Below the pieces are notes generated by a model. It made no database searches and was not told the origin of the DNA. It saw only the letters and a list, made by a program, of their open reading frames with translations. A program made the position numbers and the translations under genes. Positions 19,805 to 30,650 of a stretch of DNA of 64,000 bases are shown in pieces; the first letter of the stretch is position 1; every line of letters starts with the position of its first letter. The stretch is from Hyphomicrobiales bacterium. GTDB lineage: Bacteria; Pseudomonadota; Alphaproteobacteria; Rhizobiales; Rhizobiaceae. The stretch spans positions 1 to 64,000 of the forward strand of contig UEIF01000049.1 of NCBI GenBank assembly GCA_900468805.1, written 5' to 3'.

Positions 19805-20665
19805 TTACTGTTTCACCGCGCCAGCGGTCAGGCCGCTGACGAGATACCGTTGAAGGAAGAAAATCACGATCATCGCTGGCGCGATGCCAACGAAACTTGC
19901 CGCCATCAGCTCATTCCAAACGACTTCCTGACGACCGAAATAGGCGAAGAGCCCGACTGGCAGCGGCGCGAATTCGGTCTTGGAATTGAAGGTCAGGGCG
20001 TAGATGAACTGCTGGGCGTAGGATCCGATGAAGGTGGTGATCGCCACCACTGTAATGCCGGGCATGGCGATCGGCAGGATGACGCGCCGCAGCGTGTAGA
20101 AATGGCTGGCGCCGTCGACGAAGGCCGCTTCATCCAATTCCCTCGGAATACGCATCATATAGGTGCGCAGTAGCCAGATCGCCGAGGGGATCAGGAAGGC
20201 GATGCCCGGGACCATGATGGCGAAATAGGTATTCAACAGCCCGAACGAGCGCATCAGCCGGAAGAGCGGAATGAGCAATACGGCGCCCGAAAACATGTTG
20301 ACAGCCAGGAACGCCCCAAGCAGCAGCCCGGCGCCTTTGAACTCGAAGCGCGCGAAGGCGTAGGAGGCCGGAACGACGAGGATCAGCACAGCGGTAGTGA
20401 CGACGGTCGAGATGAAGAAGGAATTGAAAATATAGCGCCCAAAGCCCGGTACGCTGACCCACATCGTCCGGTAGGCCTCAAACGAGCCGTTTTCGGGAAT
20501 GAACCGGTAGGGGGAGGAAAACAGCTGGCTGAGAGGCTTCAGTGAGACGAGAAACCCCTCGACGAAGGGGGCGAGAACGAAAGTGAGGAACACCAGGATA
20601 CCGGCATAGATGCCGATGACTTCATACCATTTGTACCGATTGATCAGCAGATGGGGTGTCTTCAT
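19805..20665 (-). CDS. Sugar ABC permease (MalG type)
   Basis: A 286-residue, six-helix inner-membrane permease. I start at MKTPHLLINRYKWYEV, whose ATG overlaps the stop of permease 1 by four bases; the longer open frame is overlap. The coupling-helix EAA loop reads ELDEAAFVDGASHFYTLRRVILPIAMPG, the canonical MalG-like form. The C-terminus RYLVSGLTAGAVKQ is typical of CUT1 second permeases. It pairs with the upstream MalF-type permease. Confidence 0.93.
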   Translation of the reverse strand: MKTPHLLINRYKWYEVIGIYAGILVFLTFVLAPFVEGFLVSLKPLSQLFSSPYRFIPENGSFEAYRTMWVSVPGFGRYIFNSFFISTVVTTAVLILVVPASYAFARFEFKGAGLLLGAFLAVNMFSGAVLLIPLFRLMRSFGLLNTYFAIMVPGIAFLIPSAIWLLRTYMMRIPRELDEAAFVDGASHFYTLRRVILPIAMPGITVVAITTFIGSYAQQFIYALTFNSKTEFAPLPVGLFAYFGRQEVVWNELMAASFVGIAPAMIVIFFLQRYLVSGLTAGAVKQ

Positions 20666-21546
20666 CGCTTGTCTCCGGAAGAAAGGCGGCTGGTAATGCG
20701 GAAATAGCAGACGCAGAAGATCGACAGGAAGATGCAGATCAGTACCGCGCGCGCTGCGCCTTCGCCATATTTGTTCGAACCGATCGCGGTGCGATAGGTA
20801 TCGATGATCATCGTCGTGGTCTCGCCGCTCGGGCCGCCCCGCGTCAGGATCCAGATAATGTCGAAGGAGTTGAAGGTGGAGATCAGCGACAGCATCGACA
20901 TGGTGATCATCGAGGGCACGATCAGTGGCAGAGTGATGCGGCGGAAACGATAGAAACGTCCGGCGCCATCCGTCCAGGCTGCCTCGTAGAGATCCTGCGG
21001 GATCGCCTGCATGGCGGCCAGCATATAGAGCGTAACCATCGGAACGCCGATCCATACATCGGTGATGATCGTTGCCCAGAAGGCAGTCGATCCTTCAGCA
21101 AGGAAGGCGACAGGGCCGGAGGCGAGGCCGAAGCGCTGAAGCATGCCGGAAATCATCCCGAACTGGCCGTTATACATCCAGCCCCACATGAAGATGCCGA
21201 TTGCCATCGGAACGATCCATGGCGGCATGGTCAGCACGCGAAAGAGCGCGCGGCCGGGCACTGCGGAGTTCAGCATCGTGGCGCCGAAGATGCCGATGAT
21301 CATCTTGATCGAGACCGAGAAAAACGTCCAGATGAAGGTCCGGATAATGACCTCGGCGAAGGTCGAATTGAAGATCTTGCCGTAGTTGACCCAGCCCACC
21401 CAGTTGGTGGTCTTCTTCAGCGACGCGTCAGTGAACGACAGGATGAAGGTGTCGAGTAGCGGATAGGCGACGATCACCGTGACGTAGAGGACAGCCGGAA
21501 AAAGAAGGAGCCAGGCGAAGATGACCGTGCTGCGTTGAACACCCAT
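20662..21546 (-). CDS. Sugar ABC permease (MalF type)
   Basis: A 294-residue inner-membrane permease with about six helices. The EAA loop reads DLYEAAWTDGAGRFYRFRRITLPLIVPS. The N-terminal hydrophobic segment AWLLLFPAVLYVTVIVAYPLLDT is typical of MalF-like subunits. It overlaps permease 2 by ATGA and starts 12 bases after the oxidoreductase gene, so the operon is continuous. Confidence 0.93.
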   Translation of the reverse strand: MGVQRSTVIFAWLLLFPAVLYVTVIVAYPLLDTFILSFTDASLKKTTNWVGWVNYGKIFNSTFAEVIIRTFIWTFFSVSIKMIIGIFGATMLNSAVPGRALFRVLTMPPWIVPMAIGIFMWGWMYNGQFGMISGMLQRFGLASGPVAFLAEGSTAFWATIITDVWIGVPMVTLYMLAAMQAIPQDLYEAAWTDGAGRFYRFRRITLPLIVPSMITMSMLSLISTFNSFDIIWILTRGGPSGETTTMIIDTYRTAIGSNKYGEGAARAVLICIFLSIFCVCYFRITSRLSSGDKR

Positions 21547-21558
21547 CTTCTTGCCTCC

Positions 21559-22716
21559 TCAAGCCGCCCTTGCGTGGAGCGCCTCGTCGAAGCGGTCCCA
21601 TATGGGGCGCAGATCGACGACCGTCTTTTTCATCCTTGCCTCGTCCATGGCGAGGGCGAGAATGCCGGCCTCCAATGCGTTCAGGGTCGAGACCGGGAGT
21701 TCCGAGCCGGTGCGCACGCTTTGCAGAATATCGGCTGCCATCTGCTCGTCGGCGCCGTAATGCTGCGACAGCTCGGTCGCAGCATATTTGTTTTCGACGA
21801 TCTTGTTGCCGGTCAGCTGCTCGTGGACGTCGAGATAACCGCGGACGAAATCGCCCTCTGCCATGCCGCGCGAGCCCATGATGGCGAAGCGGCGGAACTG
21901 GTCGGGAACATTCAGATTGGTGTGGAAATTCATGCCGACGCCATTGGCATATTCGACGATCGCCACCTGGTAGTCGATGATGTCGGCGTCGCTGTCGAAC
22001 ACCTTGTCCGAGCCCATCCAGCCGCTCGGCTTGCGATGGAAGAGTTCCAGATCGTTGATGCCTTCGCGCGCCGGGTCGTTTGCGGGAATGAAGCTCTTGC
22101 GGCCGCCGAAGCTCGCTACCCGTTCCGGGCGGGCGCCGATCACGCCATTATAAAGGTCGAGGTCGTGGCAGCACTTTTCCAGCATGAAACTGCCGGAGTA
22201 ACGCTCGTAGCGACGCCAGTCGCGCATGAAGAAGGCGCCGTGATAGGGTTCGATATGTTCGGAGGCTTCGATGGACACGATATGGCCAAGCTTGCCTTCG
22301 GCCTGGACGGCGCGCAGATCCTTGTAAAGGGGAGAGTAGCGCAGCACGAGGCCGACCATCAGCCGCTCATGGCCGAATTTTGCCATCAGATGGGCAAGTT
22401 CGATGCTCTCGGCAATCGTCGTCACGATCGGCTTTTCGCAGAAGACCTTGAGGCCAGCCTCCAGACCGAGACGGATATGATCGAGATGCAAATGGTTGGG
22501 AGAGCCGATCATCAGGAGATCAAGCTTTTCGGAGCCGAGAAGCTCCTGCGGCGAACCATAGGCCCTGCCGACAGAGACGCCCTTTTCCGTCAGCTCGGGA
22601 AGCCCCGCGGGATCCGGATCGACATAACCGACGATCTCGAAGCTGCTGTCGATAGCCTTGAAGACATAGCCAAGATAGCCAAGCCGGAATCCCAGCCCTA
22701 TGATTCCCACTTTCAT
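21559..22716 (-). CDS. Gfo/Idh/MocA-family oxidoreductase
   Basis: A 385-residue NAD(P)-dependent dehydrogenase acting on a sugar or inositol-like polyol. The start MKVGIIGLGFRLG is chosen over a longer frame because it begins the Rossmann fold. Motifs: GIIGLGFRLG cofactor loop, the family EKP motif in VFCEKPIVTT, and a C-terminal substrate domain with ASEHIEPYHGAFFMRDWRRY and CCHDLDLYNGVIG. It is the first gene of the ABC operon and so probably carries out the first or second oxidation of the imported sugar. Its promoter shares a motif with the RidA-RpiR operon. Confidence 0.9.
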   Translation of the reverse strand: MKVGIIGLGFRLGYLGYVFKAIDSSFEIVGYVDPDPAGLPELTEKGVSVGRAYGSPQELLGSEKLDLLMIGSPNHLHLDHIRLGLEAGLKVFCEKPIVTTIAESIELAHLMAKFGHERLMVGLVLRYSPLYKDLRAVQAEGKLGHIVSIEASEHIEPYHGAFFMRDWRRYERYSGSFMLEKCCHDLDLYNGVIGARPERVASFGGRKSFIPANDPAREGINDLELFHRKPSGWMGSDKVFDSDADIIDYQVAIVEYANGVGMNFHTNLNVPDQFRRFAIMGSRGMAEGDFVRGYLDVHEQLTGNKIVENKYAATELSQHYGADEQMAADILQSVRTGSELPVSTLNALEAGILALAMDEARMKKTVVDLRPIWDRFDEALHARAA

Positions 22717-22737
22717 GCTAGTGATGTTCCCAGTTTC

Positions 22738-22766
22738 GTAATTTATTTTCTTCAAGTTGGGACAAA
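22738..22766 (-). promoter_or_regulatory. Shared upstream motif of the Gfo/ABC operon (candidate RpiR operator)
   Basis: On the minus strand: TTGTC, eight bases, AAGAAAATAAATT, ending 22 bases before the oxidoreductase start. It matches the element at 14109-14136 with identical spacing. The rest of 22767-23047 holds no gene that I can support. Confidence 0.5.
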
Positions 22767-23047
22767 AATCAGAGCCCGTCAACCGAAAACGGGGCTGAAT
22801 GCGAGTTGATGAAATTGATTTTCATCGGCCGCGATATTTGCCCGGCTCGAACCCATCGTGCCGCCGCCTTTCGTACCGCCACTCGACAACCCGCCCGGGC
22901 CTGATCTCGTACCCGGGTCAGGCCTCCCGAACCCGACCGGACGATGCTGCCAGGTCTCACAGCCGGACGTCGGCTCGCTGTCCGCGGCTGACCTTGGCGC
23001 CTCGCAAGAGCGAAACCCGCCGTGAGGGCTAGACTAGGCGAAGCATT

Positions 23048-23659
23048 TCACTGCGAACGAGGGCCTGCTTCGTCGTCGGGACTCTTCAATGCGTATTCAA
23101 CGGTGTAAACGCGAACGCGGGGGCGGCTTTTATCAGTCTTCTCCCCGAATTTGAGTTTCTCGGTGATCACCGGAACCACCTCCTCGCCTCGTCCTTTGTC
23201 AATGAGCGAGGCTGCAACATCGCCATCGATGATAGCGGGTGGGGCTTGCAGTTCGTCAAGAAAGTCTTGGGAATCGCTCCAGCCTTCGGAACGCCAGGTT
23301 TCGATGCGTTGATCCAGATCGACAGCTCCCGCGTCATTGAGGATGTTGAACGCCAGGTCGTGACGGTCAGGCGACAGGCCGGATATCGCGAGCAGATGGC
23401 CGCCTCGCCGAATGCCCTCCCTGTATGCCGCATGGTCAGCTTGCGGGAACAGGAAATTTTCGAGTTTGTCCCAAAGGCTGTTTTGATCGTCCGGCTTTTT
23501 TGTCGGGGCCTGCATATCTTTGATCAGGTTGATGCTCCCTCGTGGAATGCCAGCCGCCTTCAGCCGTTCGGCGGCCTCTTCAGCCGCGCCTCGATCATCA
23601 AAGAGCGATGTCAAAGATAGGAAATGGCTTGCACCTTTGTCAGCGTCGCCTTGTGTCAT
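23048..23659 (-). CDS. General-stress-type protein with YflT/17M-like N-terminal domain
   Basis: A 203-residue protein. The start MTQGDADKG has GGAG about nine bases upstream; earlier in-frame ATGs lie in repeat-containing leader DNA. Residues about 12-100 (SLTSLFDDRGAAEEAAERLKAAGIPRGSINLI) resemble the heat-induced stress YflT / GSP17M domain, including the glycine-rich GIRRGGHLLAISG segment. The C-terminal half is polar and ends RPRVRVYTVEYALKSP, similar to the DUF2382/YsnF end in related proteins. Presumed role in envelope or oxidative stress; not established. Confidence 0.65.
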   Translation of the reverse strand: MTQGDADKGASHFLSLTSLFDDRGAAEEAAERLKAAGIPRGSINLIKDMQAPTKKPDDQNSLWDKLENFLFPQADHAAYREGIRRGGHLLAISGLSPDRHDLAFNILNDAGAVDLDQRIETWRSEGWSDSQDFLDELQAPPAIIDGDVAASLIDKGRGEEVVPVITEKLKFGEKTDKSRPRVRVYTVEYALKSPDDEAGPRSQ

Positions 23660-23732
23660 CGTTTTCCACTCCATTGTCTCTTGCGTTAGCAGGAATTCCT
23701 GGCAGGGCCGACGGTTCCCGATCATGGCTTCT

Positions 23733-23788
23733 TCGATCGGCCGCGGCCGAGAGGTCTTGTTCGATCGGCCGCGGCCGAGAGGTCTTGG
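23733..23788. repeat. Perfect 28-bp tandem duplication
   Basis: Two adjacent identical 28-base units (23733-23760 and 23761-23788), each containing the palindrome CGGCCGCGGCCG and ending AGAGGTCTTG. They lie in the intergenic region between the divergent stress-protein and ROK genes, so they could be paired protein-binding sites or a slippage duplication. Confidence 0.85.
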
Positions 23789-23878
23789 CAAGAATCGGCT
23801 CGTTGTTCAGGGAACCTCTATCAATGACCCCGCGTTACCCTGTCCCATCCTTGGGTTTCCCAGGTGTCGAGGTTATCG

Positions 23879-24958
23879 ATGGAAAAAGCCAAATCGGAAA
23901 AGCAGGCTCGGGCGGTTCCCCTGGCCCATGGTGCTGCAGAACTCCCCGCTGTCATCATTGATGAATACAGCAGCAAATTGCGTGGCAAGAACGGCTTTCT
24001 CGGTGACGACGCCAATAAAACGACCTTCTCCCTGAAGGTCGACGAGCTCCGGAAACTTCTGCCGGCACACGGGAAGGATCCGCTCAATAAGACGCCGGCG
24101 AAAGATATCTCCAGAAAGAAAATAAACGCGCTGCTGCGCGGTGATGATGTCGAGGCCGCCGCCGTCATCATGGGCGCAATCGAAGGCTTCGCCCAGGATT
24201 TTGCAGGTGTGATCGAGAAATTTCTCAAAACCCGCATCTGGTCGAAAACCGAGAAAATTGTCATCGGCGGCGGGTTCAGGCAGGGGCGTGCCGGCGAGCT
24301 GGCGATCGCCAGGACACAGCTCCTGCTCACAGCAGCTGATCTGGATGTCAAGCTGCTACCGATCGCCCATCATCCCGACGAAGCCGGATTGATAGGCGCA
24401 GTCCATCTCATGCCGGACTGGATGCTCAATGGCCATGAAGCAATCTTGGCCGTCGATATCGGCGGCACCAACGTGCGAGCGGGCATCGTCGAGTTCGGCA
24501 AGGGGAAAAGCCTGAACCTTGACGAGACACATGTCGTGGAGTCGATTCTCTGGCGCCACGCAGACGATGAGCCAAGCCGTACCGCAACCATCTCCAGGCT
24601 TGCCTCCATGCTCGACGAACTCATAGGAAAGGCGAAGTCGGCGCGTCTAGGGCTAGCGCCGCTGATCGGTATCGGCTGTCCCGGAGTTGTCGAAGCCGAC
24701 GGATCAATCGTTCGGGGAGGCCAGAATTTGCCGGGCGGAAATTGGGAAAGCGATCATTTCAACCTTCCCTTTGAGCTCAAAAAGGCAATACCGCACATCG
24801 GCGGCCATGACACTTTCATAATGATGCATAATGACGCCGTCTTGCAGGGACTTTCTCAGCTGCCCCAAGTGAAAGACGTTTCGCGATGGGCGGTGCTCAC
24901 GATTGGCACCGGCCTCGGAAACGCCCACTTCACGAACCGGGTCGTTAAAGAGAAATAG
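23879..24958 (+). CDS. ROK-family sugar kinase with apparently circularly permuted motif order
   Basis: A 359-residue protein carrying all the main ROK kinase motifs but in an unusual order. The start MEKAKSEK follows GAGG. Residues 18-22 (GAAEL) resemble the sugar-contacting loop. IVIGGG (127-132) and DEAGLIGA (167-174) are normally near the C-terminus of ROK proteins. Only then come the phosphate-binding VDIGGTNVRAG (192 on), GIGCPG (264-269), HND with the candidate catalytic Asp319, and TIGTGLGN (341-348) right at the C-terminus. The zinc motif CGxxGCxE is absent. If folded normally, the new termini fall between the TGTG loop and the sugar loop. Likely cytoplasmic glucokinase/ROK activity; whether active is unknown. 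Confidence 0.8.
   Translation: MEKAKSEKQARAVPLAHGAAELPAVIIDEYSSKLRGKNGFLGDDANKTTFSLKVDELRKLLPAHGKDPLNKTPAKDISRKKINALLRGDDVEAAAVIMGAIEGFAQDFAGVIEKFLKTRIWSKTEKIVIGGGFRQGRAGELAIARTQLLLTAADLDVKLLPIAHHPDEAGLIGAVHLMPDWMLNGHEAILAVDIGGTNVRAGIVEFGKGKSLNLDETHVVESILWRHADDEPSRTATISRLASMLDELIGKAKSARLGLAPLIGIGCPGVVEADGSIVRGGQNLPGGNWESDHFNLPFELKKAIPHIGGHDTFIMMHNDAVLQGLSQLPQVKDVSRWAVLTIGTGLGNAHFTNRVVKEK

Positions 24959-26205: not shown

Positions 26206-30650
<4,445 letters not shown>

Follow-up and report, generated by a model that had tools for sequence, protein, structure and literature searches.

A naturally circularly permuted ROK-type kinase family with a probable link to stress response and trehalose metabolism

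A 64,000-nucleotide stretch of Hyphomicrobiales DNA, the whole of which we call the window, encodes a protein whose two ROK halves stand in an N-to-C order rotated relative to that of the PF00480 family. That the protein arose from a ROK kinase by natural circular permutation is, in our view, nearly certain. The permuted order, its conservation in a family of homologues, a promoter element upstream of many members and recurrent gene neighbours were all established by computation. On balance, we favor a reading in which a single old permutation of a ROK kinase was recruited to the general stress response, where the protein would probably serve as a kinase of glucose, or of a related sugar, in trehalose metabolism.

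The kinase gene lies on the forward strand as a single unbroken frame of 359 aa, with its ATG at 23879 and its stop at 24958, and a putative ribosome site (CGAGG, 23868-23872) precedes the ATG. From N to C terminus, the ROK elements appear as GGG, D.AGLIGA, DIGGT, GIGCPG, HND and TIGTGLG, with IVIGGG at residues 127-132, DEAGLIGA at 167-174, VDIGGT at 192-197, HND at 317-319 and TIGTGLG at 341-347. A previous sequence-only reading had reported that the C-terminal ROK elements IVIGGG and DEAGLIGA precede the phosphate loop VDIGGT, that all elements lie in one uninterrupted frame, and that the protein stops soon after TIGTGLG. We found the same positions and confirmed the rotated order and the open frame from ATG to stop, and the chain ends at residue 359. 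That reading also took the first residues, VPLAHGAAEL, as the segment that normally follows TIGTGLGN; the rotated alignments agree with this, at a register that is weak in this part. Features of the locus are collected in Table 1.

Table 1. Coordinates of the permuted kinase gene, its parts and flanking features in the window
Feature	Position	Strand	Basis
Divergent conserved protein without Pfam match	23048..23791	-	Same neighbour in 7/78 distinct genes, window counted
EcfG/RpoE2-type promoter-like element, GGAAC-N17-CGTT	23811..23836	+	Pattern scan; element upstream in 47/72 distinct loci
Circularly permuted ROK-type kinase gene, 359 aa	23879..24958	+	ORF, Pfam ROK, homologues
Equivalent of C-terminal half of normal ROK kinase (acceptor loop remnant, helices, IVIGGG, DEAGLIGA), residues ~12-180	23912..24418	+	hhalign; fold of N-half alone
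Linker from ancestral C terminus to ancestral N terminus, residues ~178-188, MPDWMLNGHEA	24410..24442	+	Rotation optimum 181-186
Equivalent of N-terminal half of normal ROK kinase (DIGGT, GIGCPG, HND, TIGTGLG), residues 187-354	24437..24940	+	Pfam; VIA Z 13.2 to 2yhw 405-554
DIGGT phosphate loop, residues 193-197	24455..24469	+	D193, G195, G196 invariant in 39/39
HND with presumed catalytic Asp 319	24827..24835	+	Invariant in 39/39; role presumed by homology
TIGTGLG second phosphate loop, residues 341-347, beside new C terminus	24899..24919	+	T341, G343, T344, G345, L346, G347 invariant in 39/39

Pfam ROK matched the window protein at residues 190-353 only, against profile positions 2-141 of 294 (E 9.5e-7, 29 bits, above the cut-off of 22.9), while the NCBIfam N-acetylmannosamine kinase model PRK05082 matched residues 78-178 against model positions 195-286 of 291 (whole-protein E 0.001). 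Because the C-half falls on early Pfam ROK positions and the N-half on late PRK05082 positions, the order is rotated. The Pfam match was seen at E 0.01 or better in 35 of 39 permuted-family members. With the ROK glucokinase model of NCBIfam, TIGR00744, the window protein scored 32.6 bits and did not reach the curated cut-off of 260.35 bits.

For profile comparison, 39 permuted-family members were aligned (A1) from 55 loci (L001-L055); 15 of the 16 loci left out were close to included rows, and the other, L022, has a broken frame (275 aa). Two sets of normal-order ROK proteins served as targets. The first (A2) comprised 14 proteins from the window's genome, taken from 16 ROK places without the shorter matches L069 and L071, and the second comprised 13 proteins from five other genomes, taken from 18 places minus the shorter L130, L131, L138, L139 and L141. 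When A1 was compared with A2 in native order using hhalign, two separate, out-of-order matches were obtained, one of the C-half to columns 2-144 (score 76.8, E 2.8e-10) and the other of the N-half to columns 196-292 (score 44.5, E 1.8e-5); the N-half alone matched the second half of ROK with E 1.8e-6. After rotation of A1 at residue 185, with residues 1-11 omitted, one colinear match extended over columns 2-292 of 294 (score 111.6, E 1.5e-15). A scan of 25 rotations reached its maximum of 110.5 twice, with residue 181 or 186 placed first, and the score dropped on either side of the optimum, to ~76 for a start at residue 91 and 59 for one at 316. Rotated constructs with 20 column-shuffled N-halves showed no gain (mean 76.5, largest 78.8). 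Against the second ROK set, in which the N-half again appeared as a second match in native order (E 2e-7), rotation raised the score from 87.7 (E 7.9e-12) to 131.5 (E 2.2e-18), and 20 further shuffled controls, with a maximum of 87.6, again showed no gain. The single colinear match with both ROK sets bears out the earlier interpretation of a natural circular permutation rather than a fusion or truncation.

The sequence-only reading had also proposed a Pfam or HMM alignment after rotation at about residue 185. This restored colinearity in profile-profile hhalign, as described above, but for the single sequence and its halves brought no real gain with either Pfam (ROK 29.1 bits rotated versus 29.0 bits native) or NCBIfam, and the N-half alone had no ROK match in Pfam. 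When A1 was compared with 29 single normal-order ROK sequences, rotation mostly shifted the hhalign score by <3, with the largest gain being 7.8 (L062); the rotated alignment nevertheless covered nearly the whole length of the single targets L128, L056 and L062. Against PDB sequences, native A1 gave a best E of 0.00014, its top match lying partly on an expression tag, and a rotated six-member profile gave a best E of 0.0071 over the first half only, with no gain from rotation. Because single-sequence Pfam, PDB sequences and single ROK targets showed little gain, the effect of rotation is one of profile-profile comparison, backed by structure.

AlphaFold2 on A1 produced a model with pLDDT 86.5 and pTM 0.86. 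Model residues 185-354 correspond to the first ROK half, with the best agreement to 2yhw 405-554 (Z 13.2, 2.0 A over 147 residues), and the C-half was also matched to 5nck 1-144 (Z 9.8) and 3vgk 2-142 (Z 10.2). The N-half folded alone (186 residues) reached pLDDT 74.2 and pTM 0.70. In a Foldseek search with this half, ROK proteins occupied the four best rows, but at E 0.1 or worse, all matches being above E 0.001. VIA-align placed second ROK halves at the top for the N-half alone (3vgk 130-296, Z 8.6, 2.4 A over 109 residues; 5nck 132-269, Z 8.2, 2.4 A over 97 residues), Z values near 8 that are modest by VIA-align's own note and that are closely followed by pantothenate kinases (Z 7.0-7.4). 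The two model halves thereby select complementary parts of the same ROK chains, as in 5nck, where the C-half takes 1-144 and the N-half 132-269. Whole-chain structural matches also included CoaX, actin and MreB, which a repeated-domain fold would allow. The comparison with known ROK kinases that had been suggested therefore identifies the C-half as a first ROK half and, more weakly, the N-half as a second one.

These data bear directly on a fusion of an unrelated N-terminal domain to a truncated normal-order ROK domain. Such a fusion would be in line with the restriction of the Pfam match to residues 190-353, the lack of a Pfam ROK match for the N-half alone and the small rotation gain against single sequences. 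However, both profile alignment and predicted structure put the N-half on the missing second ROK half, and shuffled N-halves gain nothing, so that we regard a fusion as extremely unlikely. The earlier reading had allowed for the N-terminal ~180 residues being an unrelated domain; they align instead to the second ROK half, and their predicted structure does likewise.

Homologues sharing the permuted order, another check that had been proposed, form a widespread conserved family, present in many bacteria of soil and plants, that spans Alphaproteobacteria and includes some genomes beyond that class. Among near genomes, relatives turned up in 9 of 41, a count that includes the window's own genome; wider sets gave 66 of 397 for the order (E 0.001 or better), 16 of 385 for the class and 22 of 398 for the phylum, five of the last being labelled 'same phylum' only. 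A near full-length copy (below E 1e-90) was present in 57 of the 397 order genomes. Matches at E 0.1 or better occurred in 211 plasmid records, in 204 of which they cover at least 80% of the query; among 60 listed rows, most carry the label 'ROK family protein' and one 'glucokinase'. The species-genome collection contributed sixteen loci, with Rhizobium, Neorhizobium, Agrobacterium, Pararhizobium and Alsobacter among the names, and phage records contained 2 weak partial matches. An assembly or sequencing artefact, in favor of which we have no point to offer, has a negligible probability because near full-length homologues recur in the plasmid records as well as in the genomes of several bacterial families and classes.

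The window's genome carries a second permuted copy on another contig, 62% identical to the first, and 16 further Pfam ROK places that include neither permuted copy; the 14 of these that were aligned are all in normal order. Of the 55 proteins read, all but L022 (early break) end no more than about 35 residues beyond T(I/M)GTGLGNA, and some have Lys-rich tails. Nine loci of the group that we call family f35 (L037-L041, L044, L047, L049 and L055) have a low-complexity C-terminal tail rich in Lys, Asp and Gly after the second phosphate loop. One in-frame stop each was seen in L091 (G539), G766:C29 and G822:C37, which may be decaying genes or sequencing errors. A plasmid labelled Roseateles (Betaproteobacteria, UNVERIFIED_ORG; L077, NZ_CP084753.1) carries the gene with a Shinella-like otsB neighbour, and the organism name may be wrong. 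An apparent fusion in L089 (open frame of 1022 aa) was rejected, the upstream part being a read-through frame that overlaps another ORF.

To place the family, a tree of 40 proteins was built from 13 rotated permuted members (of the 39), 14 normal-order ROK proteins of the window's genome and 13 other normal-order ROK proteins. All permuted members fell into one clade (support 1.0), whose branch measures 1.79 substitutions per site. A single permuted clade on a long branch fits one old permutation event. By hhalign score, the nearest normal-order single sequence was L129, with the zinc-free L141 second and L131 fourth (n=29). L131 and L141 had themselves been candidates for further permutants on account of first-half-only Pfam matches, and were rejected as zinc-free proteins of normal order; both carry an ELAHHP motif at the expected ExGH place and constitute a separate ROK subgroup.

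Fifteen positions of the motifs, D193, G195, G196, N198, R200, N318, D319, T341, G343, T344, G345, G347 and G130-G132, were invariant in 39 of 39 members, whereas T197 is replaced by S in 9 and by R in 2. We take the invariant motif residues to be the ATP and catalytic site by the known ROK mechanism, and the permuted protein is very probably an active kinase. ROK kinases typically share a zinc motif (CxCGxxGCxE), absent from some of them, and the acceptor motif ExGH. The window protein has no zinc motif and no cysteine cluster, its sole Cys being C267 in GIGCPG, so the loss of zinc noted earlier stands. HGAxxLPSV occupies the ExGH position, and Glu is found there in 12 of 39 members. Family-specific residues invariant in 39 of 39 are W225, H227, P232, R234, N283-P285, W289, F40, G42, D43, D67 and P68, and, as a conjecture, D43 may substitute for a lost acceptor residue. 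Because the canonical acceptor residues are not kept and there is no zinc site, glucose specificity does not follow from homology; we give glucose an even chance of being the main acceptor.

The loss of canonical acceptor residues might instead point to a catalytically silent or sensing ROK-like protein that acts as a stress regulator rather than an enzyme, and ROK does include regulators, of which Mlc and Lmo0178 are among the structural matches. Neither Pfam nor NCBIfam revealed a DNA-binding domain, however, and the ATP and catalytic motifs, Asp319 included, are invariant throughout the 39 members although a dead protein would not need them. A silent protein is accordingly improbable in our judgement.

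Upstream regions were searched for GGAAC-N15..18-[CG]GTT within 200 bp, a pattern that we take to be the EcfG/RpoE2 consensus. Collapsing 86 gene-bearing loci left 72 distinct regions; 47 contain the element upstream of the permuted gene, and its distance to the estimated start is 50-80 bp in 43 of them. Shuffled upstream regions contained a mean of 0.35 elements (largest 3), other 220-bp segments of these loci had it in 53 of 4258 cases (1.2%), and on the opposite strand it occurred in 7 of the 72 upstream regions. When one representative was kept per 70% protein-identity cluster, the element was present in 14 of 23. The strict element is missing from 25 of the 72 regions, including all 13 loci of family f35, a family that by inference is Bradyrhizobium-like; it is present in a Bradyrhizobium plasmid (L078). 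Across the window there were 5 promoter-like matches versus 3.2 expected, so that a single match in the window means little. NepR, a protein of the EcfG pathway, is encoded in the window's genome, and sigma-70 and terminator scans yielded nothing useful. A 28-base unit, TTCGATCGGCCGCGGCCGAGAGGTCTTG, stands twice in tandem at 23732-23787; the pair falls in the divergent ORF's start region and precedes the promoter element. Judging from the upstream sequences, members with the element are likely to belong to the general stress regulon. In Bradyrhizobium, otsA and otsB are under EcfG control, according to the available part of one report (PMC8092242).

Neighbours were counted after reduction of 108 loci to 78 distinct genes; in unannotated loci, neighbour genes were called by an ORF and codon-position heuristic, and some were checked with Pfam. 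Because many loci span 1.5 kb per side only, the counts cover near neighbours and are lower bounds. The commonest neighbour found was otsB (trehalose-phosphatase), which lies divergently in at least 26 of 78 distinct genes; it was Pfam-checked in two loci and annotated in 7 of 13 plasmid stretches examined, one of the 13 being without annotation. It was not seen in the examined stretch for 52 of 78 genes, the window's own included, and in the window's genome the sole otsA and otsB matches are grouped on contig C48, apart from both permuted copies. Six of the otsB loci have, after the gene, OtsA (GT20) and a GH15 enzyme whose N-terminal domain is trehalase-like, as assigned by Pfam for L104 and by tblastn for the remaining loci. 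Candidate treY, treZ and glgX genes surround the gene in L021 and L022, Pfam giving alpha-amylase-type domains for L021. In Sinorhizobium meliloti and S. medicae, a NAGGN-osmoprotectant M42 peptidase gene takes the place of otsB (3 distinct Sinorhizobium loci), and a ferritin-like gene lies divergently beside 4 distinct genes and is present somewhere in the examined stretch for 8. The divergent protein of the window may represent a family of stress proteins for which no model exists.

Other genes were noted at these loci. The second copy in the window's genome (L146, 3260-10432) lies among DJ-1/PfpI, two SRAP-matching ORFs and a LigD-type ligase, and Ku and ligD are also near the permuted-kinase copy of the 'Roseateles sp. 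XES5' plasmid (L077). By eye, the reverse strand of the window carries two consecutive, mutually similar aldo-keto-reductase-like ORFs (26860-28020 and 28124-29458), and a sugar ABC transporter permease pair with a Gfo/Idh/MocA-like oxidoreductase (19805-22782).

In the mechanism that we propose, the ancestral N and C termini would have been joined via a short linker, and new termini opened between TIGTGLG, the second phosphate loop, and the acceptor-binding loop of the C-terminal domain. We infer that in nature the chain would still fold into the usual two-domain ROK shape, binding ATP via DIGGT, TIGTGLG and GGG, with Asp319 as the base for phosphate transfer. In many members the gene would be part of the alphaproteobacterial general stress response through an EcfG/RpoE2 promoter. 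The kinase would most likely phosphorylate glucose and thereby supply or recycle glucose 6-phosphate for trehalose synthesis; what speaks most against this is the loss of the usual acceptor residues. At the otsB/GH15/otsA loci this could form a cycle, in which OtsA would consume glucose 6-phosphate, OtsB release trehalose, GH15 return glucose and the permuted kinase remake glucose 6-phosphate.

The permutation may be real and the kinase active with an acceptor other than glucose, the site having been rebuilt for another sugar or an osmolyte, e.g. a disaccharide or a sugar derivative. The scarcity of the ExGH Glu and the loss of the zinc site, set against family-specific residues that are nevertheless invariant, would suit such an acceptor, as would the variation of neighbours, with the M42 peptidase and ferritin-like genes at some loci. 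On the other hand, the commonest neighbour is a trehalose gene, where glucose is the obvious acceptor, and zinc-free ROK glucokinases exist, 1woq presumably being one. We therefore rate a non-glucose acceptor as possible and less probable than our preferred reading. A bolder form, equally tentative, is that one old permutation beside the acceptor loop freed the acceptor site and gave rise to a stress-response kinase of an osmoprotectant pathway, with an acceptor new to ROK enzymes. Our preferred reading remains the glucose or related-sugar kinase of trehalose metabolism.

The sequence-only reading recognized the permutation itself, and that part stands; the loss of ExGH besides that of zinc, the widespread family and the frequent stress and trehalose surroundings were not part of it. 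As far as we know, whole two-domain kinases seldom undergo natural circular permutation; here one such permutation is fixed in a conserved family together with clues to its biology. The family offers an experiment on how moved termini affect specificity in a much-studied enzyme, and an uncharacterised candidate for the network that links stress and trehalose in nitrogen-fixing symbionts of plants. It also means that the label 'ROK family protein' is based here on one protein half. In the portions of the open-access literature that were accessible, we came across no permuted ROK, hexokinase-fold or sugar kinase, an absence that is not proof, and the available parts of PMC7701253, PMC3454389 and PMC4167512 describe no permuted ROK kinase. 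An apparent RpoE2-ROK link in the accessible part of PMC8857273 was discarded, Rok there being a Bacillus silencer. Fold groups may contain circular permutants, as stated in the part of PMC1079889 at hand.

Compared with ROK sugar kinases (glucokinase 3vgk/2qm1 and N-acetylmannosamine kinase 2yhw/5nck; PF00480), the permuted kinase shares DIGGT, G(I/V)G..PG, ND, TIGTG.G, GGG and D.AGLIGA and has the same predicted halves, but in swapped order. It differs from them also in lacking the zinc and ExGH motifs, in carrying extra family motifs and in forming one long-branch clade. The inorganic polyphosphate/ATP-glucomannokinase 1woq, which we take to lack zinc, has the first-half fold and the absence of the zinc motif in common with the permuted kinase; the NCBIfam polyphosphate-glucose phosphotransferase model matched the window protein at E 0.017 only. 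The zinc-free L131 and L141, unlike the permuted kinase, are in normal order. The 'circularly permuted type 2 ATP-grasp protein', a name that occurs in PMC7701253, is likewise a known enzyme fold re-cut at new termini. The ATP-grasp fold differs from the ROK fold. With the EcfG/RpoE2 regulon that includes otsBA in Bradyrhizobium, part of the permuted family shares the promoter element and the otsB/otsA neighbourhood, whereas the available part of PMC8092242 mentions no glucokinase and no gene like the permuted kinase, which would be a candidate addition to that stress and trehalose setting.
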